Positions 16,683 to 27,963 of a DNA stretch of 64,000 nt are shown piece by piece. The notes below the pieces were generated by a model, which made no database searches, was not told where the DNA came from, and was given only the letters and a program-made list of their open reading frames with translations. A program made the position numbers and the translations under genes. Source of the stretch: Thiogranum longum (GTDB taxonomy: Bacteria > Pseudomonadota > Gammaproteobacteria > DSM-19610); the NCBI RefSeq assembly GCF_004339085.1, contig NZ_SMFX01000001.1, positions 1,253,227 through 1,317,226 of the forward strand, written 5' to 3'. Every line of letters starts with the position of its first letter. The stretch's first letter is position 1.

Positions 16683-19142
16683 CTAGAAATCAGCGCGATA
16701 ACCGAGATTGAAGAAGAAAGAGGAGGTGTCCTGGGTATCATTGGGTAAATCCTGGGTAGACCATTCTCCACCGAACTCTGTTTCAAATCGGTAGCGTTTC
16801 CGCCAGCGGTAGTCGATACGCATCGACGGTGCAGCGATCCATTGTGTGGAGTTGTTACTGGTATTGTCCCGGTAATCGACCCTCATACGGGGATTTACAC
16901 GCCAGACTTTACGGAACGGGAAGCGGCTGTTCAGCGATAGCGAGGCAATGTGACTGCTGGTAGTGTCCGAGTAACGTAGCCCTGCCACGCTAACGTCACC
17001 CGGCATTAACAGGTTGCTGCCGATGAACTGCAGGTTGTAGAAGAATTCGTAGTCAGTTCCGGGGATTTCATCAACACCTCCGGATGCCCTGGTGTCAGAT
17101 AACTTCGATAGGGTGATGTCACCACTGATCTGGTATTTATCGGTTAGCGGGTGTGCGGCACCCAGTGTGATGCTGGTCGAGTCGGCTGTACGATCTTCTG
17201 CCAGGTCGCGGATTTCATCGTCTGTGAAGATATCCTGTAATGCATTCATGTCGGGTACCGTCTGTCCCTGCAAGGCATTCGAGGTTGTCAGTATCGGGCT
17301 GTTGCGGTAGTCGATTGAAGCATTAATAGTTGTTCGGTCGGGCAGTGTCCAGGTGCCGAGAAGGATCAGCGTATTCAGTGACGAATAGGAGATATCGTAG
17401 TCGACGAAGCTTAGCAGTGAGAGCCTGGGGTCGAAATAGCGCGCTTCGCCACCGACAGCACGACGATCAAGAACACCGTCATTTTGCTGCTCGATTAAAA
17501 AGACATTGAAATCCCAGGCGTTGGCGAAAGTTCCGAGATCGGCACTGATACCATAAAGGTAACGCTCGGTCTTCAGCTGGTCCCGTGTCGATAAAACGGG
17601 AAAACCGGCGACGACGTTGACAAGGATTCTGTCATTGAGCTGGTAACCGGCAAGCAGCCCGTCGAAACGACCCAGTACACCACCCGTGTTCCGGGACTGG
17701 CGTCCCAACCGCGCGGAGAGCCCGCTGGATTTATGGTTTATGTCGGCATACAGGCTGCTGATGCTACTGCTGTCACCAGGCCCATCGCTTAGAAAATCGT
17801 ACAGGTAAGAACCGGTAAACCGGGACTGGATATCATATCGCTCACCACGTTTGCGCGCTGTAATATCAAGGTCGGTTGACAGTGATGACTGGGTCACTAC
17901 ATCACCGGCAGCGTCTGTGGTGCTTTCGTCACGCCGGTAGAACTGGGATACGCCGCCATAGATATCCCATTCCGGCTTGCGTGAGGAACGACGTTTTCGG
18001 CCTGTTGGTTCTCGTGATGCCTGTTTTGCAGTCGTGATACCCGCCAGTCGTTGTGCAATCCGGTCAGCATCTTCGCCATCCGGGTAAAGGGCGAGGTAAC
18101 GTTTGTATTCGCGAACTGCATGAGCAAGCTGTCCCTTTCGCTCCCTGGCTACGCCAAGAAATTCCAGTGCATCCTGGCGATACGGGTTGTCCGGGTAGCG
18201 AAGAATTTTTGTGTACAGCTGAATCGCATGGTTAATATCGTTTTTTGCCATGGACTGCCGTGCCTGTTCCATGAGTTCGGCAATCTTTTCGTCCGGTGTT
18301 TTAGGGAGGGTAGGGGTGATTCCTGGTACTCGCAGTTTTCGTACAACAGCTTCCCCCCCGGCCTGCTTGAGTGCAGCTGTTATTTCACTGGCGCTGGCGT
18401 AATCGACCCAGGCGCCAGGGTAGCGCGATTTGACTTTCTTCAGTGCAGCCCTGGCCTGCGCACGGGTTTCGAAGAACCCGGCACGCAAACGTGACCAAAC
18501 ACGGCCATCAATCGGAAATTTCGTTGTGTACAGGGTCAAGTTCCGGTTCAGGGGGAGGGCGCCTGCAGAAGGTACAGCGATGTCACGCAGTGATGACTCC
18601 AGGTTGATGACATAGTGCTCGGTATAATTGGCCTCGGGACTGGATTTACTCTGGCTTCGGCGGCTGGATTCCGGTTGCAAGACAGCAGGTTTGTTTACGA
18701 TATTTTCATTGGTGACAACTTCCAGTCGCAAGTGACGGCGGTCGCTGCCCGGGTAGAGCTTGTAGCTGACCTCGCGTGAAAACCTTAGCGTCAAGGTTCC
18801 GCGTTCTGTGTCGAGTGGATCATAGCGTGCCTCAATCAGTGGAACCAGCGTGTCACGTTCGGCTACAACGGTTTGAAGCTCATTGGAAAATGTTTCCAGT
18901 GAAAAGAGACCATTGCTCAGTGCGCGTAACTCGATCAGGAGTTCATCGCCGCGCCTTTCAGGGGCATGTGTGACGTACTGCATTGGCACGTTAAATTCGA
19001 CACGTATTGTCGCCGGGTTGCGGCTATCATCGATGCTGACAGTATCAATGACACCAGCAGCGAAAATTGAAACAGATGCCAGTAATAACCCGGCGAAGGC
19101 CAGCAAGCGCAGTCCATTAGCTTTTATATGATTCATTATCAT
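16683..19142 (-). CDS. Exported TPR/beta-barrel outer-membrane protein of the multihaem operon
   Basis: An 819-residue multidomain protein. Residues 1-28 are a signal peptide. About 30-150 is a beta-sandwich like the AMIN-type domain in the gene before it. About 205-255 resembles a SPOR-like unit (RLRAGFFETRAQARAALKKV). About 285-370 is helical with TPR repeats (INHAIQLYTKILRYPDNPYR, LAHAVREYKRYLALYPDGED). From about 390 to the end alternating strands form a probable beta-barrel that ends FNLGYRADF, with the terminal Phe used by the Bam machinery. It could be the outer-membrane conduit for the two large cytochromes encoded upstream, as MtrB-type porins are for MtrA, though no sequence link to MtrB is claimed. 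The ATG overlaps the previous stop by 4 bases. Confidence 0.78.
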   Translation of the reverse strand: MIMNHIKANGLRLLAFAGLLLASVSIFAAGVIDTVSIDDSRNPATIRVEFNVPMQYVTHAPERRGDELLIELRALSNGLFSLETFSNELQTVVAERDTLVPLIEARYDPLDTERGTLTLRFSREVSYKLYPGSDRRHLRLEVVTNENIVNKPAVLQPESSRRSQSKSSPEANYTEHYVINLESSLRDIAVPSAGALPLNRNLTLYTTKFPIDGRVWSRLRAGFFETRAQARAALKKVKSRYPGAWVDYASASEITAALKQAGGEAVVRKLRVPGITPTLPKTPDEKIAELMEQARQSMAKNDINHAIQLYTKILRYPDNPYRQDALEFLGVARERKGQLAHAVREYKRYLALYPDGEDADRIAQRLAGITTAKQASREPTGRKRRSSRKPEWDIYGGVSQFYRRDESTTDAAGDVVTQSSLSTDLDITARKRGERYDIQSRFTGSYLYDFLSDGPGDSSSISSLYADINHKSSGLSARLGRQSRNTGGVLGRFDGLLAGYQLNDRILVNVVAGFPVLSTRDQLKTERYLYGISADLGTFANAWDFNVFLIEQQNDGVLDRRAVGGEARYFDPRLSLLSFVDYDISYSSLNTLILLGTWTLPDRTTINASIDYRNSPILTTSNALQGQTVPDMNALQDIFTDDEIRDLAEDRTADSTSITLGAAHPLTDKYQISGDITLSKLSDTRASGGVDEIPGTDYEFFYNLQFIGSNLLMPGDVSVAGLRYSDTTSSHIASLSLNSRFPFRKVWRVNPRMRVDYRDNTSNNSTQWIAAPSMRIDYRWRKRYRFETEFGGEWSTQDLPNDTQDTSSFFFNLGYRADF

Positions 19143-19594
19143 TGGTCGGAAGGGTCGAGGAAAACTTTTATACTGCGGTAGTCCGGACCGGGTATAACGT
19201 GGTAATGAACGGGCCGGGTGAAATGTATGGTCAGCCAGGGGCCTTCTTTCACGTCACCTTCGTAGACTACTTCGTCAACAGAATACTGTTCAGCACCTTG
19301 TGGGCTTATACCTTCACGACCGGAAACACTTTCCCGGTCCACGGGTGCAACCTGAACAGGTTTCAGACGAATGCGCAGTTCTTTGCCTTCGTCAATCGGG
19401 AAATGTCCCAGGTAACTGAACAGGAACGAGAGTTTTGCTTCAAGTACCGGTTTTCCGTCCACAACCTGGATTGTCACCTCTTCGAGTACCTTGTTGGGCA
19501 CGGGAGCAGCGACGGCCGCAGTCCAGGAAAAAACACCTGGCAATGACAGGCAGAGACCTGTCGTTATAAAAAGCCTGCGTAACGTTTTCATCAT
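19139..19594 (-). CDS. Small exported AMIN-like protein in the cytochrome operon
   Basis: A 151-residue protein with a signal peptide (about 1-29, LFITTGLCLSLPGVF). The mature domain is all-beta with the pattern ELRIRLKPVQVAP and GPWLTIHFTRPVHYHVIPG, close in style to the N-terminal domain of the following barrel protein (both contain an LxIxLRP/RFSR-type strand and a pre-terminal Y-x-V-I-P-G or Y-K-L-Y-P-G turn). It may be an assembly partner or periplasmic collar. Starts are stacked (GTG 19597, ATG 19594, ATG 19591); I use 19594. It begins 9 bases after the 20-haem cytochrome stop and ends with an ATGA overlap. Confidence 0.7.
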   Translation of the reverse strand: MMKTLRRLFITTGLCLSLPGVFSWTAAVAAPVPNKVLEEVTIQVVDGKPVLEAKLSFLFSYLGHFPIDEGKELRIRLKPVQVAPVDRESVSGREGISPQGAEQYSVDEVVYEGDVKEGPWLTIHFTRPVHYHVIPGPDYRSIKVFLDPSDQ

Positions 19595-19603
19595 CACGAT
19601 ATG

Positions 19604-21268
19604 TCAGTCAAAGCTGCCATCACTGACGCGGTGTTCACCACTTCGACGCTTTTTGATGGTGGTCAGACTGCTGTCTGTATAGGTATGGCAGCTGCCGGAA
19701 CAGTCACGGAGTTCGCCTACCTTGTATTTGATATCCGGGTTTTCAGACTTCTTGTGCGGCCCGGATTCGTAATCACCCGCGTGGCAACCGGCACAATCCG
19801 GCTGATAGCTCGGCGCAGTCCAGGTTACGGTCTGTGCGTTACTGCGATGACACGAGGTGCAGGCCATATTGCTTCTGTGATCGCCGGGATAATTCCCCGA
19901 GCTATGCCGGAAGTCAATCGGTGTCCAGCGTGTTGAGTTGTGACAGCTGTCGCATTGCAGTGCAGTCACAAAATGATTACCTGGCTTGCCGGTTGCTGTG
20001 CTGCCGTTGTGGCAGGATGAGCAGGACCCGGTGACATTATTGTGGTCAAAGCTTGCCGGTAACCAGGCGCGGTTTGAATGACAGGTGTCGCATTGAGCGC
20101 TGGTCTGGGTGTGATTGGCGGTTTTCCCGGTTGCGGTAACACCGTTGTGGCAGCTGCTGCAGGTTCCAGGAGCTACGCTGTTATGGTCGAATACAGCGGG
20201 AATCCAGGCGTTGCTTGTGTGGCAATCATCGCAAGTGTTTCCGGACGCGATATGAGATGCCGATTTCCCGGTTGCAGTACTCCCGTTGTGGCAGCTGAAG
20301 CAGGTGCCCACAACATCGGTGTGATCCACACGAATAACCGGTGTCCAGCTGCTGCTGCGATGGCAGTCTTCACAAATGTTGCTGGTCTGGATATGTTGTG
20401 CATTTTTACCCGTTGCAGTGGTGCCATTATGACAACTGGAACAGTTTCCACTGATGCTGTTGTGATCAAAAGAAGCCGATGACCAGTTGTTGGTATTGTG
20501 GCAATCCTCGCACTGGTTACCCGAGTTAATGTGATTTGCCGGCTTTCCGGTTGCTGTACTGTTGTTGTGGCAGGTAGAACAGCTTCCCATGACATCGGCA
20601 TGATCAACGCGAATGACAGGTGTCCAGCTGCGGCTCCGATGACAGTCCTGGCACAGATTGTTGGTCTGTATATGCCGGGCATTTTTCCCGGTTGCCGTGG
20701 CGCCATTGTGACAGCTGATGCAGTTCCCACCGATACTGCTATGGTCAAATACGGCCCCGGTCCAGCCGTTGGTGGTGTGACAATCATCACAGCTGTTACC
20801 GGAAGCGATATGCGAAGCAGATTTCCCCTGAGCTGCCGTGCCGTTATGGCAGGAAGTACAGCTACCGAGTACAGCAATATGGTCAATGCGGGTAACCTGT
20901 TTCCAGTCACGTGTCGTGTGGCAGTCCAGGCAGCTGTCGGTGGTACGGATATGGCTGGTCGGCATGCTCTCGCCCTCCATCCGCGATGCGCTGTTATGAC
21001 AGCTGGCGCAACGCGTCGGGGTGCCTTTGAATACACCACGTATATGACAGGCGTCGCAATCAGCAGACTGATGCCCGCCGTCAAGCGGGAACCCGGTGGA
21101 AAAGTGATCAAACGTTGTGTCCTTCGCGTAAGCGCCGGCTGTGGCGAACAGTGCCGCGATGAAGGTCAGCGTGAACAGTATGCGCTGCAGCAGGCGGTAG
21201 TGCCGGCCCGAAGCCAGAAGGCTGTGACAACGGTAGCGCAGGTAAGGTTGATCAGTTGATATGTACAT
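19604..21268 (-). CDS. Repetitive multihaem cytochrome c, about 20 haems
   Basis: A 554-residue protein with 19 CxxCH motifs plus one C-terminal CxxxCH (CSGSCH). A hydrophobic export segment lies at about 28-47 (ILFTLTFIAALFATAGAYA). The body is a run of about 46-residue units, each with an N-G-x-T-A-T-G-K stretch, a spaced His (NHINSGNQ or QHIQTSNI), a CxDCH and a DH pair that offers the distal His. Every two units form a supra-repeat of 93 residues (279 bases), so this is a linear ladder of bis-His haems fit for long-range electron transfer in the periplasm or at the surface. The ATG at 21268 overlaps the upstream 21-haem gene by 17 bases. The longer upstream reading lies inside that gene and is rejected. 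Confidence 0.85.
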   Translation of the reverse strand: MYISTDQPYLRYRCHSLLASGRHYRLLQRILFTLTFIAALFATAGAYAKDTTFDHFSTGFPLDGGHQSADCDACHIRGVFKGTPTRCASCHNSASRMEGESMPTSHIRTTDSCLDCHTTRDWKQVTRIDHIAVLGSCTSCHNGTAAQGKSASHIASGNSCDDCHTTNGWTGAVFDHSSIGGNCISCHNGATATGKNARHIQTNNLCQDCHRSRSWTPVIRVDHADVMGSCSTCHNNSTATGKPANHINSGNQCEDCHNTNNWSSASFDHNSISGNCSSCHNGTTATGKNAQHIQTSNICEDCHRSSSWTPVIRVDHTDVVGTCFSCHNGSTATGKSASHIASGNTCDDCHTSNAWIPAVFDHNSVAPGTCSSCHNGVTATGKTANHTQTSAQCDTCHSNRAWLPASFDHNNVTGSCSSCHNGSTATGKPGNHFVTALQCDSCHNSTRWTPIDFRHSSGNYPGDHRSNMACTSCHRSNAQTVTWTAPSYQPDCAGCHAGDYESGPHKKSENPDIKYKVGELRDCSGSCHTYTDSSLTTIKKRRSGEHRVSDGSFD

Positions 21269-22817
21269 CGCTGAATCGCTCCGTATTGTGGCATCTGGCG
21301 CAGTTGCGTCCAAAACGGCCTTTGTGAATATCATCCGCCCGGTGGCAGCTGTTACAGCTGTTTGCTGTGGCGGGCAGTGCATCTTCGGTCGGTGTGGTAT
21401 GGCAGTCTTTGCACGACAGGTCTTCATGCGCGCCTTCCAGCCGGAAACCGGTTTGCTCGGCATGATCAAATTGCCAGGCTGACCAGCTGTTCGGGTTGTG
21501 ACACTGCTGGCAATTTGTGCCGAGTGTCGACTTGTGGTCATCGTCATCACGGTGACAACTGATACAGGACCGGGACGTGTCACGGAACGCCGCAGAGGTG
21601 TGGCACTCTTCACAGGGTGCGGTGGCGTGCAGTCCCAACAGGGGGAAGCGTGTCAGATCATGGTCGAACACAATACGTTCTGACCAGCTTTGTGTCTGGT
21701 GGCAGCGCTCGCAGGCCTTGCCTTCCTGTCCATGGTGAACATCGTCACCGGCATGGCAGCTCAAGCAACTCGTAGACAGTTCTTCCTGCTGTATATCACC
21801 CTGGTGGCAGGCAACACAGGAGATGGTTTTGTGTTTTCCCGTTAGTGCAAAATCGGTTTTCCGGTCGTGGTCAAAACGGGTTGTCGACCAGCTTTTTTCG
21901 CTATGGCAGCTATCGCACTGTTTCCCGTAATTTCCGTGATGGGCGTCATCACTGCGATGGCAGGCGATACATTCAGTTTCCGGTTTCTTGTCCTTGACGG
22001 GGTCTGTATGGCAGGCTTCACACCGAACCTTTCTGTGTTTCCCACGCAGCGGGAAATCAGTGTCCCCATGGTCAAAATCGGTCTTGTCCCAGCTTTTCTC
22101 GTTATGGCAGGTTTCGCACTTGTTGCCATTTGCGCCGGCGTGTACGTCATTAATGGCGTGACAACTGTTGCAACGGTCCGGGGTGTCTTCGTAGCGTTCA
22201 TTGACATGGCAACTGGCACAACGAACTTTTTTATGCGCCCCAAGCAGCTGGAAATCTGTCGAATCGTGATCGAACTCGAAGCGATCCCAACGGGCAGGTG
22301 TATGGCAATCATTACATTTGCTGCCCAGGTTGCCCTTGTGTGGGTCACTTTCCTTGTGGCAGTCATTGCAGGCAGAAGGTGCTTCAGACCAGGTCTTTCC
22401 CGCAAGATGGCAGGTAGTACAGGCAATGGTTGTGTGAGCACCTTTCAGGTGAAAATCTGTTTTCGTGTGATTGAATGTTAATGGATCCAGTTGCACGATA
22501 TCGGCATTACGGCCAAGGTGCTCACTGTGGCAGCTCTTGCAGGTCCTGTTTTTAATACCGTCGATTTGCCCGTGAAAACCTTTGCTGTTCGCGATATCTG
22601 CAGAGACTTCTTTGTGACAATCCAGACAAAGTTGTTCCTGCGTACCTTTACGAAAACGCAGGTGGCATTGCGAGCAATCCGATTCGAGTTTTTTATGACC
22701 CTCGATAACCTTGCCAGGCATCAGCAATGTCTCGATATCCGCTGCCAGCATGAGGCGCGGAGATGCCAGCGTGAGTCCGGTCAGTGTCATCATGATAATT
22801 CGTATCCAGTTACCCAT
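21252..22817 (-). CDS. Multihaem cytochrome c with 21 CxxCH motifs
   Basis: A 521-residue cytochrome c3-family protein with a signal peptide (about 1-26). I count 21 CxxCH sites, from CSQCH near residue 48 to CARCH near the C-terminus, with no gaps longer than about 45 residues. The repeats differ from those of the next gene: they carry FDHD-x-T-x-F-x-L-x-G-x-H segments (for example FDHGDTDFPLRGKH) giving distal His ligands, as in long c3-like electron conduits of iron- and sulfur-cycling bacteria. It starts 21 bases after the membrane di-haem gene and overlaps the next gene, so it is central to the operon. Periplasmic electron storage or transfer is likely; the direction of flow cannot be read from sequence. 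Confidence 0.88.
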   Translation of the reverse strand: MGNWIRIIMMTLTGLTLASPRLMLAADIETLLMPGKVIEGHKKLESDCSQCHLRFRKGTQEQLCLDCHKEVSADIANSKGFHGQIDGIKNRTCKSCHSEHLGRNADIVQLDPLTFNHTKTDFHLKGAHTTIACTTCHLAGKTWSEAPSACNDCHKESDPHKGNLGSKCNDCHTPARWDRFEFDHDSTDFQLLGAHKKVRCASCHVNERYEDTPDRCNSCHAINDVHAGANGNKCETCHNEKSWDKTDFDHGDTDFPLRGKHRKVRCEACHTDPVKDKKPETECIACHRSDDAHHGNYGKQCDSCHSEKSWSTTRFDHDRKTDFALTGKHKTISCVACHQGDIQQEELSTSCLSCHAGDDVHHGQEGKACERCHQTQSWSERIVFDHDLTRFPLLGLHATAPCEECHTSAAFRDTSRSCISCHRDDDDHKSTLGTNCQQCHNPNSWSAWQFDHAEQTGFRLEGAHEDLSCKDCHTTPTEDALPATANSCNSCHRADDIHKGRFGRNCARCHNTERFSDVHIN

Positions 22818-22838
22818 TCAGTAATCTGTCAGCCCCCG

Positions 22839-23741
22839 CTAGTACATGTGTACCGCGACGACATGCACTACGCCGGATAGCACCAGCATCAGGAAAAACG
22901 GGAAGTGCAGTACATGCCAGATAGAAAACAGCCGTTCGTAAAAATGAAATTCTGTCACTTTTCGAACGCTTTCGAGTTGTGCGCCGATATGTCGGAGTAA
23001 TGTTTTACGTTGTGCAGTCGGCAAGGTTGATGGAACCTGCCGCCATAAAGACAGGTACAGTAACCAGGTCCGGAAACCCAGCGAGCCCAGGGTTAAAAAG
23101 CTGCTAATGATCCCCGCCGGCTTTGTGTGCGCCAGTGCCTCGAACTCGCGTACTTGGTTGCGAATCCGGGGGTAGTCTGTGAGGTGACTTTCCAGAGAGC
23201 CGCTGAGTAGCTCGGCATGGCGAGTGAGTTCCTCCAGCGTTGCCTTGCGTCCGTACAGGCCATGGTGGATACGTGTGTAGAAGTATCGACCGACCAGACC
23301 GCTACCCGCGACCAGCAACATACAGAACAGTGCAATGTTGCTGTTCAGCGATCCAAGCTGGAAACCACTATGGAAGAGAATGCAAACCGGCCCGATAATG
23401 CCGAACAGCATGTGGGTGCGAAACCAGAATCGCACCGGTCCCATTCGCCGCATAAAACCCGCATGTTTACGCAAGGGGTAAAGTAGTAATAACAGCATCA
23501 GCGTGCCGCCCACGATGCCGAGCGCATACCCTGCGCCATTTTCTGCAGTCAGCGGTTGCTCAATACGGTGTTTCCACCCGTAAGCGATGATCGCGAGGAT
23601 TGACAGGTACCCCATAGCCAGCAAAATCCCACGCATGCGAGGACGGTACAGTTCGATCAACGAACCGCGCTGCGGTGATGCTGTATCTTTTTCGGTTACG
23701 GGTATAACGAGTTCAGCGGGCATGATGTTTTTTACATCCAC
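22839..23741 (-). CDS. Ferric-reductase-like membrane di-haem b protein
   Basis: A 300-residue integral membrane protein with about six helices. Two helices carry paired His at the spacing known from the ferric reductase/NADPH oxidase fold: His110 and His124 (H-x13-H) and His279 and His293 (H-x13-H). That geometry holds two stacked b haems and moves electrons across the membrane. There is no FAD/NAD domain in this chain; the divergent gene at 24272 encodes a suitable flavoprotein. It is the first gene of the multihaem operon and would hand electrons to, or take them from, the periplasmic cytochromes. The start is a GTG at 23741 or an ATG at 23723; neither has a strong ribosome site. Confidence 0.78.
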   Translation of the reverse strand: MDVKNIMPAELVIPVTEKDTASPQRGSLIELYRPRMRGILLAMGYLSILAIIAYGWKHRIEQPLTAENGAGYALGIVGGTLMLLLLLYPLRKHAGFMRRMGPVRFWFRTHMLFGIIGPVCILFHSGFQLGSLNSNIALFCMLLVAGSGLVGRYFYTRIHHGLYGRKATLEELTRHAELLSGSLESHLTDYPRIRNQVREFEALAHTKPAGIISSFLTLGSLGFRTWLLYLSLWRQVPSTLPTAQRKTLLRHIGAQLESVRKVTEFHFYERLFSIWHVLHFPFFLMLVLSGVVHVVAVHMY

Positions 23742-24271
23742 AGGTCATGGTGGACGGCTCCTGGCTATATAACGGTAGGCAGATTGTCTTTTGAAGTGCG
23801 TTTTCCATGCTGCCTATCGCGTCACAAAAATTGGGAAATTACACCCAAGTTGCAATGAATGTGCCAGAATAAGTGGGTCTGATTAGCGGTTTATTCCGCC
23901 TAAAGAACTGTAAGTGCTTGTTTTTTTTATGGGCTCAATCTATGTAAACAGCCAATAGAGGTTGAAATTTTGACCCATGTCGGTATTCGGCGACGACAAA
24001 ACGGTGCAAAAAATAGCGTTTTTAAGGCGGATTGGCCATTCGTCCATCGAAAGACTGTCGGCAGATGAAGACAGGTTTTGTACCAGATTAACGCCCTTCC
24101 GGCCGATGAACCGGGTTTCAGGGTATGGCACATGAACTGCAGTGTGTCAGGAACTTTGTGCAGCACATCACATTTTCGGGCGTTATACCCCGATCAATAT
24201 CAGGGTACAGCGCTGCGCGCCGATGAGTCAGCCGTTACCCGTTTTAACTGGACGCAATTTTCAACGCTACG
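23742..24271. other. 530-base divergent intergenic region, no gene evident
   Basis: This AT-richer region separates the cytochrome operon from the divergent flavoprotein gene and must hold both promoters. Small open frames here show no conserved pattern. A stretch at about 23950-24010 contains, on the minus strand, GGGTCAAAATTTCAACC, a sequence style seen at IS21-family ends, but no transposase gene is present. A T-run at 23922-23929 has no clear stem before it. I could not assign a sharp promoter or operator. Confidence 0.4.
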
Positions 24272-25573
24272 ATGAACGCAACGTTTGCCCTATATTTTTT
24301 ACCGCTGGCACTTATCCTGCTCTGGTATGTACATCGCGGGCAGAGGTTGCACGCGCAAAGCCTGGCTGCGCTCGAAGAAAACGAACGCGCCGGCCTGACA
24401 GAACCTGCTTCGTTGCACCCGGTGATTGATGCTGGTCGATGTATGGGATGTGGTTCCTGCGCCAGTGCCTGTCCGGAAGGTAATGTACTCGGACTGGTAG
24501 CGGGCAAGGCGGCATTGATTAATGCCACACACTGTATCGGCCACGGGGCTTGCAAGGAAGCTTGCCCTTTCGATGCGATCACGCTGGTGTTCGGTACCGA
24601 AAAACGTGGCGTTGATATACCTGCGGTCAAGCCCAATTTCGAAACCAACATGCCGGGCATTTTTATTGCTGGCGAGCTTGGTGGTATGGGCCTGATACGA
24701 AATGCCGTTGAGCAGGGACGACAGGCAATACAATCCATTGCTGCGTATGACGGTGCTGTAAAGGATAATCAATGGCAGGATGTGGTGATCGTTGGCGCAG
24801 GGCCGGCAGGATTCTCTGCCTCGCTTGGCGCAATGGAACTCGGGCTGCGTGCGGTAACGATCGAACAGGAATCGTTGGGTGGAACAGTCAGTCATTTCCC
24901 GCGTGGTAAACTGGTAATGACCGCGCCCGTAAAACTTCCCCTGGTCGGCAAGGTGTCGTTCACCGAAACCACCAAGGAAACGCTGATGGCGTTCTGGGAA
25001 AAGACCGAACAGGAAACCGGCGTTAATATCAATTACGGAGAGCGACTGGAAGAAATTACACCCGAGGCCGGGGGGTATCTGGTACGGACATCGAAAGCAT
25101 CGTACCGGACGCGTACGGTATTGCTGGCGATCGGTCGTAGAGGCACGCCGCGTAAACTCGGTGTGGAAGGCGAATCCCTGTCCAAGGTGGTCTATCGCCT
25201 GATTGATGCCGAACAGTACAGGGGGCAGCATGTACTTGTAGTCGGTGGTGGCGACAGTGCACTGGAAGCTGCAGTGAGCGTGGCAGAACAACCTGGCACC
25301 ACGGTTGCCCTGTCCTATCGTTCGGGTGCGTTTTCTCGCGCCAGGGACAAGAACCGGAAACGTATAGATGAAGCCGTTGCAAACGGGCGTTTACAGGTTA
25401 TTTTTAACTCCAATGTGCTCTCTATCAGCGAGTCTTCTGTGACAATTGACCAGGAAGGAAAGACTGTCGAATTACCCAACGATGCCATCATCGTATCTGC
25501 GGGGGGTATTCTCCCAACACCGTTCCTGCAAAAAACCGGGATTGAAGTCGAAACACACCATGGCAAGACCTGA
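24272..25573 (+). CDS. Membrane-anchored ferredoxin/FAD NAD(P) oxidoreductase
   Basis: A 433-residue protein with three parts. Residues 4-20 form a membrane anchor (TFALYFLPLALILLWYV). Residues 50-105 form a two-cluster ferredoxin domain: the first site is CMGCGSCASACP (Cys57, 60, 63, 67), while the second reads CIGHGACKEACP, with His91 where the second Cys normally is. Residues 175-430 form a thioredoxin-reductase-like FAD/NAD(P) domain with IVGAGPAGFSA and VVGGGDSALEAA, but no CxxC redox pair. It should pass electrons between NAD(P)H, flavin and Fe-S clusters at the inner face of the membrane, next to the di-haem b protein encoded divergently. Its stop overlaps the next gene by 14 bases. 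Confidence 0.84.
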   Translation: MNATFALYFLPLALILLWYVHRGQRLHAQSLAALEENERAGLTEPASLHPVIDAGRCMGCGSCASACPEGNVLGLVAGKAALINATHCIGHGACKEACPFDAITLVFGTEKRGVDIPAVKPNFETNMPGIFIAGELGGMGLIRNAVEQGRQAIQSIAAYDGAVKDNQWQDVVIVGAGPAGFSASLGAMELGLRAVTIEQESLGGTVSHFPRGKLVMTAPVKLPLVGKVSFTETTKETLMAFWEKTEQETGVNINYGERLEEITPEAGGYLVRTSKASYRTRTVLLAIGRRGTPRKLGVEGESLSKVVYRLIDAEQYRGQHVLVVGGGDSALEAAVSVAEQPGTTVALSYRSGAFSRARDKNRKRIDEAVANGRLQVIFNSNVLSISESSVTIDQEGKTVELPNDAIIVSAGGILPTPFLQKTGIEVETHHGKT

Positions 25574-27539
25574 ACAAAGTCTGTTGAGGCAGGTTCTGTT
25601 GTTATGCCTGCTGGTACTGGCAGAACCTGTCCTTGCCGATGCCTACAGCGACGCCTTGTTTGCCATACGTACACGTGACTATACCCAGGCATATCAACTG
25701 TTGAGGGAGTTGGGTAACCAGGGGCATGTCGACGCGCAGTACCAGCTCGCAGCCATGTACCGGGCAGGCACAGGTACCGGAAAAGACCACCGTAAAGCCG
25801 CTTACTGGTACCGCAAGGCTGCAGAACAGGGGCATGTAAAAGCGCAATACAATCTCGGTGTCATGTATGAAAACGGGTGGGGTGTCAATCAGAGCACAAA
25901 AGAAGCCAGACACTGGTTACAGCTTGCGGCTGACCAGGGGCATCGCAAGGCCCGTGCGAGGCTTGAAGGAACACTCGGCGCAAAGGTAGATGAGAGAAAA
26001 AAGCAGGCCACCGGGGCTGATCTGCACCGTGCTGTTATAAAAGGAGACAGCGCACGTGTCATTGCGATACTGGAGACTGGTGTCCCGGTCAATGCGCGGG
26101 ATGCAAACAAGGCGACGCCACTGATTCGTGCTGCCGGGTTGGGGCATGATGCTCTCGTTAAAAAGTTGTTGGCGCAAGGCGCCGATATACATGCAAAAGA
26201 TGCCGTGGGCGATAGTGCATTGATGAAAGCCACCGCCGGGGGGCATGACAAGGTTGCAAGCCTGTTGCTCGCTGCAGGAGCAAATGTTAATGCCCGTGAT
26301 GCGGGCGGCAATACTGCGCTGATAGTAGCGACCCGGGCAGGCGAAAAGGAAACTGTAAAAATACTTCTCCGGCAAGGCGCAGATCCCGGTGTGCGTAATC
26401 GTAACGGGAGAGCTGCGCTAAATCTTGCAAAAAGCGGAGGCTATACCGCTATCGAGAAGCTGTTGCTTAATGCAGGTGCACAGCTTGCGCCAGTCGCGAA
26501 ACATGATGAGAGCAAGCGCGTAAGACAATTGGGCGAGATTGCAGCCCGGCGCGGAGAAGATGATATACCGCTGATTGTGGAAGCGGCATGGAGAGGCCAG
26601 CAGGACGTCGTGCGCAGCCTGTTGAAACAGGGCATTTCAGTTAATACGCGGGACAAGGAGGGGTATACCGCTTTGGCTCGTGCGGCATGGGGCGGACATG
26701 AGGAAATTGTACAGGACCTGATTGCTGCAGGTGCCGATATCAATGCCCGTAGCACAAATGAATCAACAGCGTTATTGCTGGCGGCAAGGCAGGGAAATGA
26801 ACGTATAGTACGGCAACTCCTGATGGCGGGCGCGACAGATACTGCGGATGAGAACGGTATTACAGCCCTGAACCATGCCATGAAGTCCGGCCAGAAATCC
26901 CTTGTCGGGTTGCTGCTGAAGAATGGGTCAACACTGCAAACGGGCAGTACAGGCAAGGTTGGCCCACTGCACTGGGCGACACAAAATGGCGATGTGCGAT
27001 CAGCAAAAAAACTGGTTGAACAGGGCGCCTGTGTGGACTGCACCGATGATAACGGGCGCGATGCCTTGTGGTACGCAGCTGACACCGGCAACTTGCCACT
27101 GGTGAAGCTGTTTATCACGCGGACCGGCAATATTGATCAGCCGGATGGTGATGGCTATACACCTCTTCACCGGGCGGCACTGAATGGACACGACGCTATT
27201 GTAGGGTTTTTGCTTGAGCGCAACGCTGATCCGCGTACTTATGCCAGCGGAGGTAACAGTGCATTGATGCTGGCAGCCGGGAAAGGGTTCATTTCTGTCG
27301 TCAACCGCCTGCTGGACACGGGTATCGAACTCGATACAAGAAATGCCAGTGGCAACACGGCGCTGATGCTTGCTGCTTCCCGAGGGCATCAGGCCGTTGT
27401 TGATCTCTTACTGGAAAGTGGGGCCAATCCTGCACTTCGCAATAGTAAAAGACAACAGGCTTCAGATCTTGCCAGTGATGCCGGTTTCGATGTGATTGCA
27501 GCGCATCTCCGGGAACAGGATGACAAAGGGTTCTGGTAG
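25560..27539 (+). CDS. Exported Sel1 and ankyrin repeat protein
   Basis: A 659-residue protein. Residues 1-27 are a signal peptide (LLRQVLLLCLLVLAEPVLA). About 30-140 holds Sel1 repeats (AQYQLAAMYRAGTGTGKD, AQYNLGVMYENGWGVNQS). From about 155 to the end there are roughly 13 ankyrin repeats with the pattern G-x-T-A-L-x-x-A-x-x-x-G. The ATG at 25560 lies 14 bases inside the end of the flavoprotein gene, so translation is probably coupled. A periplasmic or outer-membrane scaffold that holds the cytochromes or outer-membrane protein together is a reasonable guess. Sel1 plus ankyrin in one exported chain is uncommon. Confidence 0.85.
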   Translation: MARPEQSLLRQVLLLCLLVLAEPVLADAYSDALFAIRTRDYTQAYQLLRELGNQGHVDAQYQLAAMYRAGTGTGKDHRKAAYWYRKAAEQGHVKAQYNLGVMYENGWGVNQSTKEARHWLQLAADQGHRKARARLEGTLGAKVDERKKQATGADLHRAVIKGDSARVIAILETGVPVNARDANKATPLIRAAGLGHDALVKKLLAQGADIHAKDAVGDSALMKATAGGHDKVASLLLAAGANVNARDAGGNTALIVATRAGEKETVKILLRQGADPGVRNRNGRAALNLAKSGGYTAIEKLLLNAGAQLAPVAKHDESKRVRQLGEIAARRGEDDIPLIVEAAWRGQQDVVRSLLKQGISVNTRDKEGYTALARAAWGGHEEIVQDLIAAGADINARSTNESTALLLAARQGNERIVRQLLMAGATDTADENGITALNHAMKSGQKSLVGLLLKNGSTLQTGSTGKVGPLHWATQNGDVRSAKKLVEQGACVDCTDDNGRDALWYAADTGNLPLVKLFITRTGNIDQPDGDGYTPLHRAALNGHDAIVGFLLERNADPRTYASGGNSALMLAAGKGFISVVNRLLDTGIELDTRNASGNTALMLAASRGHQAVVDLLLESGANPALRNSKRQQASDLASDAGFDVIAAHLREQDDKGFW

Positions 27540-27621: not shown

Positions 27622-27963
27622 TCAGGTGTCGGGTGGAGGCATTGGCAAGCCTGCCAGCTTGCAGACCTCATGAACCGGGTCTTTGGGAAACAGTTTGTAG
27701 ATATGTCTCTCGTATTCTTTCTGGTCGTGGAATTTATCGCCCTTGTGCCCCAGCGTGCGGATGACAGTGTGCATGGTGGGGTTGCTCAGGTTCTCCTTGT
27801 AGTAATCCCGGAAATACCAGATCAGTTCCCAGTGATCGACAAATAGTTCGACCCCGTCACGTTTGGCCAGTGCACTGCTGACCTCCTCACTCCATTCATC
27901 CAGATCGCACAGAAAGCCCTGCTCGTTACATTCGATGGTTTTTTTGTTTATCTCAAGATTCAT
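27622..27963 (-). CDS. DsrC/TusE-family protein with only one arm cysteine
   Basis: A 113-residue protein close to DsrC/TusE length. Markers are the N-terminal beta hairpin (MNLEINKKTIECNEQGFLCD), VDHWELIWYFRDYY and IYKLFPKDP. The C-terminal arm reads VHEVCKLAGLPMPPPDT: the first conserved Cys (Cys101, called CysB in DsrC) is kept, while the penultimate CysA, the one TusE retains, is missing. This pattern differs from DsrC (both) and TusE (CysA only). A single-gene unit on the minus strand, convergent with the ankyrin gene. A sulfur-relay function by the normal mechanism is doubtful. Confidence 0.85.
   Translation of the reverse strand: MNLEINKKTIECNEQGFLCDLDEWSEEVSSALAKRDGVELFVDHWELIWYFRDYYKENLSNPTMHTVIRTLGHKGDKFHDQKEYERHIYKLFPKDPVHEVCKLAGLPMPPPDT

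Follow-up and report, generated by a model that had tools for sequence, protein, structure and literature searches.

The locus at 16683-27539 of the window (the whole stretch of 64,000 nucleotides of Thiogranum longum DNA that was analyzed) matches PCC3, a putative porin-cytochrome c complex described as a set of four genes (He et al. 2017, PMC5566968), and it carries in addition a divergent gene pair that we newly recognise as a conserved partner module of this complex. The pair encodes a membrane-anchored ferredoxin/FAD protein (Fdx/FAD) and an exported Sel1/ankyrin repeat protein, and it was not described with PCC3 in open-access article text. We suggest that six to seven genes, rather than four, make up the PCC3 module. 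Such clusters are carried by Bradyrhizobium and by many bacteria that oxidise sulfur or iron, and the flavin/Fe-S protein that accompanies them almost universally offers a specific and testable proposal for the source or destination of their electrons.

Table 1. Features of the divergent locus (positions are those of the window)
Feature	Position	Strand	Description
Outer-membrane barrel protein	16683-19142	-	819 residues; fifth in transcription order
Small exported protein	19139-19597	-	152 residues; fourth in transcription order
CytB, second cytochrome	19604 to ~21268	-	Third in transcription order; signal peptide
CytA, 21-haem cytochrome	21252-22817	-	Second in transcription order; signal peptide
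IMP (inner-membrane protein)	22839-23741	-	300 residues; first gene of the minus-strand unit
Divergent intergenic region	23742-24271		Between both transcription units
Fdx/FAD, membrane-anchored ferredoxin/FAD protein	24272-25573	+	433 residues
Exported Sel1/ankyrin repeat protein	25560-27539	+	Overlaps the end of the Fdx/FAD gene

Two divergent transcription units span the locus, and all seven open reading frames that the initial annotation had placed there were found in the window sequence, including the divergent Fdx/FAD and Sel1/ankyrin pair (Table 1). The frame of CytB is listed as 19604-21613(-), with a likely ATG start at about 21268 that makes it overlap CytA; the frame of the Sel1/ankyrin gene is listed from 25446, with a likely ATG at about 25560. 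The claim of about 41 c-type haems was borne out, with 21 CXXCH motifs in CytA and 19 CXXCH motifs plus one CX3CH in CytB giving 41 sites. A DsrC/TusE-like sulfur relay gene (27622-27963) converges on the Sel1/ankyrin gene; it was excluded from the system because it does not recur beside the block in relatives.

The four core genes were compared with PCC3 by the published features of that complex. These are a porin, two multihaem cytochromes (one periplasmic, with 21 haems as the median, and one extracellular, with 34), a ratio of 22-39 residues per haem, and an IMP of 300 residues whose five transmembrane (TM) helices include TM4 with SGXXG and TM3 and TM5 each with WX3HX13H (He et al. 2017, PMC5566968). 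The IMP of the window has five TM helices, with W106-H110-H124 on TM3, SGLVG (S147-G148-L-V-G151) on TM4 and W275-H279-H293 on TM5, so that its two HX13H pairs are H110/H124 and H279/H293. CytA is the 21-haem partner, with 23.6 residues per haem; CytB, with 20 haem sites, a signal peptide and 25.2 residues per haem, is the second large cytochrome; and the cluster includes a barrel gene whose product was modelled with 22 strands over residues 392-819. Because the IMP motifs, the 21-haem partner, the porin gene, the order of the genes and the residue-to-haem ratios match, the four core genes (IMP, the 21-haem and ~20-haem cytochromes and the barrel) appear to be those already named PCC3, and the distinct system put forward by the initial annotation was not upheld; a wholly new system was rejected since He et al. 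2017 had described the core. The window shares with PCC3 the core genes, the IMP motifs, the 21-haem periplasmic cytochrome, the low residue-to-haem ratio and a variable second cytochrome, and it goes beyond the published complex with the divergent pair of Fdx/FAD and Sel1/ankyrin genes and with the small exported protein, the latter in a subset of loci. Published PCC3 clusters include those of Sideroxydans ES-1 (Slit_0867-0870 and Slit_1446-1449), Leptothrix and Gallionellaceae. Later papers present PCC3 as a complex of four genes whose function has yet to be tested (PMC8788666, PMC10734462, PMC12442390, PMC12016527, PMC13386937), and no biochemistry on it was found in the open-access text of the PCC3 literature.

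The initial annotation had set the locus apart from MtrCAB. Like MtrCAB, MtoAB and PioAB, the locus combines a barrel with a periplasmic and a putative surface multihaem cytochrome that would cross the outer membrane, but it has no CymA-type entry and encodes instead a putative di-haem b protein at the inner membrane. The cut-off of the MtrA/MtoA family TIGR03508 (192.2) was not reached by CytB (88.6 bits) or CytA (15.3 bits), family profile searches found no MtrB-type match to the barrel of the window, and membership in MtrCAB/MtoAB was rejected on these grounds. No MtrA-type decahaem cytochrome scored above the cut-off elsewhere in the genome.

Residues W106, H110, H124, S147, G148, G151, W275, H279 and H293 of IMP are invariant in 13 sequences. 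Hydropathy and the positive-inside rule put one histidine of each pair (H110, H279) towards the cytoplasm and the other (H124, H293) towards the periplasm. Judged from its sequence, IMP is a probable transmembrane protein with two b haems, one above the other across the membrane; both histidine pairs that the annotated di-haem b protein should have are present. The IMP of the window matched no Pfam family, and its sequence profile matched nothing meaningful in the PDB. A structure search with a medium-confidence model placed b6f and b561 entries at Z 6-8, within the noise of helical bundles, and gave no clear match. The initial annotation had called this entry ferric-reductase-type, which held for the paired-histidine motif, a likeness already pointed out by He et al. 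2017 (PMC5566968), and did not hold at the family level, as none of the 13 IMP members matched the ferric-reductase family (PF01794). The TM domain of ferric reductases and NADPH oxidases likewise has two HX13H pairs on two helices and a separate flavin supply on the cytoplasmic side; here, in contrast, there is no sequence-family match and the flavin module lies on another protein, together with Fe-S clusters.

The 21 CXXCH motifs of CytA form seven modules of three haems, and its 45 complete relatives have 18, 21 or 24 haem sites. Its signal peptide points to a periplasmic location. In CytB the haem sites are regularly spaced at ~23 residues, the single CX3CH being C-terminal, and we infer that this protein is the extracellular or surface cytochrome. 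Histidines are numerous enough in both proteins to supply each haem site with a distal ligand (25 for 21 in CytA, 21 for 20 in CytB). Neither cytochrome matched a PDB chain. CytB, which ends in a terminal aromatic residue, and its relatives have fixed N-terminal and C-terminal caps and an expandable middle, and the totals of the relatives span 15 to 133 CXXCH motifs with neighbouring genes little changed. The CX3CH motif is a mark of the C-terminal cap (19604-19750 in the window), with 28 of the 29 seen among CytB relatives falling in the last 60 residues. The last or second-last residue is F or W in 33/35 CytB relatives, where 2.7 would be expected, and in 2/45 CytA relatives, so that this cap may be described as resembling the end signal of an outer-membrane protein or a docking tail. 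Two outer cytochromes exceed the maximum of 85 haems given for the PCC3 extracellular cytochrome (He et al. 2017, PMC5566968): one of 4071 residues with 133 CXXCH (L127:7022-19237 (+), genome G230) and one of 3717 residues with 123 CXXCH (L129:959-12112 (+), Bradyrhizobium sp. BR13661). Another block (L113) has three large cytochrome genes in a row, with 23, 33 and at least 39 sites. An outer cytochrome with fixed caps and an expandable middle would amount to a natural series of protein wires of differing lengths.

The outer-membrane protein consists of an N-terminal domain, a SPOR domain (206-246), TPR repeats (284-379) and the C-terminal barrel (392-819), which agrees with its earlier description as a TPR/beta-barrel protein. 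SPOR domains usually bind peptidoglycan. The N-terminal domain also stands alone as the small exported protein (hhalign E 9e-21; small protein of the window against the HMM of the barrel protein, E 1.6e-16). The 22-strand barrel is a predicted structure (six sequences, pTM 0.49) that aligns over its whole length with 22-strand receptors such as BtuB, FhuA and PirA (Z 16-20). Barrels of this size normally hold a plug, and the model therefore does not resemble the closed porin, with no space for a cytochrome, that the initial annotation had named as evidence against a conduit.

A genome scan found the same block in 12 related loci, some of them ending at contig edges, and the gene order is conserved in most of 49 related loci, in line with the gene-order check that had been proposed. 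The relatives include Bradyrhizobium and sulfur oxidisers, which are kinds published for PCC3. In most relatives the gap between the two transcription units measures 117-1654 bp. Fdx/FAD and IMP are divergent and within 8 kb of each other in 41/49 loci, the Sel1/ankyrin gene follows Fdx/FAD in at least 35 of the 49, and in most of the exceptional loci the pair has a different position: it lies downstream of the barrel gene, sits on a separate contig or is arranged in tandem. In a class sample of 369 genomes, 41 with a strong IMP match and 328 without, Fdx/FAD is present in 40/41 of the former and 4/328 of the latter (Fisher p = 8e-48, uncorrected for kinship); in a phylum-wide sample of 398 genomes it is present in 6/6 genomes with IMP. 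The linkage of Fdx/FAD and the position of the Sel1/ankyrin gene after it in relatives mean that the block as a unit includes the divergent pair, while the small exported protein belongs to the conserved block in a subset of loci. In one locus (L092, G053:C1:2217463-2219028) a TGA interrupts the Fdx/FAD gene of an otherwise complete block, by natural decay or sequencing error. Genes for ccmF, ccmG-like, ccmH and ccmI-like proteins lie near the block in up to ten relatives (for example L096:4971-7162, L012:4272-6323 and L118:9808-10353).

Fdx/FAD has one N-terminal TM helix followed by positive residues (from hydropathy and charge), which places its body in the cytoplasm. It contains one Cys4 site and one Cys3His site, in which an invariant His replaces the second Cys; the motif CIGHGAC was found in 42/43 sequences by a strict pattern, and the 43rd likewise reads CIGHGAC. 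The FAD/NAD(P)H part matches YpdA (PDB 7a7b, 7a76), with residues 281-320 of the YpdA chain, which close the FAD site there, aligning with Fdx/FAD 122-160, ahead of the rest. Putting this stretch back into its YpdA position yields a single unbroken alignment over residues 6-311 of the YpdA-like chain (101 bits, against 97 without the rearrangement). This supports Fdx/FAD as a circularly permuted relative of YpdA/thioredoxin reductase; the continuity is the stronger point, the gain in score being modest. Fdx/FAD thus has in common with the NADPH-dependent flavoprotein YpdA/Bdr the FAD and NAD(P)H modules, which align over nearly the whole chain once permuted, and differs from it in being permuted, in carrying a TM helix and a pair of Fe-S sites as fused parts, and in having Ala where YpdA has its catalytic Cys14. 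Against the bacillithiol disulfide reductase family TIGR04018 (YpdA/Bdr) it scored 149.5 bits, below the cut-off of 339.9. As all seven of its cysteines fall within the cluster motifs as Fe-S ligands, leaving none to spare, and Cys14 is replaced, a role as thiol-disulfide reductase was ruled out. Fdx/FAD is likely an NAD(P)H-handling enzyme, and the Sel1/ankyrin protein probably serves as a scaffold in the periplasm.

These features make it fairly probable that the locus encodes a transenvelope conduit of the PCC3 type, with a path from NAD(P)H through Fdx/FAD, IMP, CytA and the barrel to CytB at the surface. NAD(P)H would reduce the FAD of Fdx/FAD, whose electrons would pass over the two Fe-S clusters to the two b haems of IMP, from there to the 21 haems of periplasmic CytA, and then through the SPOR/TPR-anchored 22-strand barrel to CytB. 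The contact between Fdx/FAD and IMP is suggested by the linkage of their genes. That Fdx/FAD is a permuted YpdA relative with two cluster sites and no catalytic cysteine supports a cytoplasmic, NAD(P)H-linked entry in addition to the quinone link of IMP in the published PCC3 model (He et al. 2017, PMC5566968), and the NAD(P)H start proposed by the initial annotation is a reasonable step beyond that model. Outward electron flow is favoured because electrons leaving NAD(P)H would then travel downhill in redox potential and with the membrane potential; they might end on Fe(III) or Mn(IV) minerals, on elemental sulfur, on partner cells or in a redox sink. More tentatively, the conduit may bypass quinones altogether, with NAD(P)H driving electrons outward to a surface cytochrome tuned from ~15 to >130 haems through expansion of the repeats that lie between its fixed docking caps. 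If this is true, PCC3 would amount to a "bacterial NADPH oxidase" with a haem wire attached, CytA would span the periplasm, and the Fdx/FAD partner would shift the working idea from quinone-linked iron oxidation to NAD(P)H-linked electron export.

The serious rival is the quinone-linked uptake model, in which electrons from Fe(II), minerals or cathodes pass through IMP to the quinone pool and Fdx/FAD is an accessory, as a link to NAD(P)+ or a redox sensor. We hold it to be rather unlikely. An inward push to NAD(P)+ would be uphill in redox potential and opposed by the membrane potential, and in a pure quinone model a near-universal flavin/Fe-S partner would be superfluous. Uptake is nevertheless the published model (He et al. 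2017), PCC3 occurs in iron oxidisers, and in strain CL21 the IMP of one PCC3 copy increases along with iron-oxidising activity. In Sideroxydans ES-1, levels of the PCC3 clusters are lower with Fe(II) than with thiosulfate, which speaks against uptake; this result also counts against the favoured conduit, as does the failure to detect the PCC3 extracellular cytochrome in the proteome of that strain (PMC8788666, PMC12016527).

Less probable still is that Fdx/FAD and the Sel1/ankyrin protein stand outside the electron path and serve cytochrome assembly or regulation, for example in thiol or haem handling. Assembly genes do cluster at the block, given the ccmF/G/H/I neighbours in about ten loci, and Sel1/ankyrin proteins are often scaffolds, but thiol chemistry by Fdx/FAD is unlikely because it has no cysteine beyond its Fe-S sites and no YpdA catalytic cysteine, and its topology faces the cytoplasm whereas c-type haem is attached in the periplasm. 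It is improbable that the cytochromes work chiefly as a capacitor, storing electrons within the envelope, with the barrel as an anchor only: storage has already been suggested for PCC3 in the literature and would suit a haem number that varies from ~15 to >130 beside little-changed neighbours, but it requires no porin, and the conserved end caps, together with the barrel partner, suggest a fixed docking position.

By its gene content the genome is probably that of a reverse-Dsr sulfur oxidiser, as dsrA is present and the named relatives are Thiohalobacter and Thiogranum. Across the class sample, dsrA was found in 21/41 genomes with PCC3 and in 94/328 others (p = 0.0065, uncorrected for kinship), which suggests a weak tie between PCC3 and reverse-Dsr sulfur oxidation.
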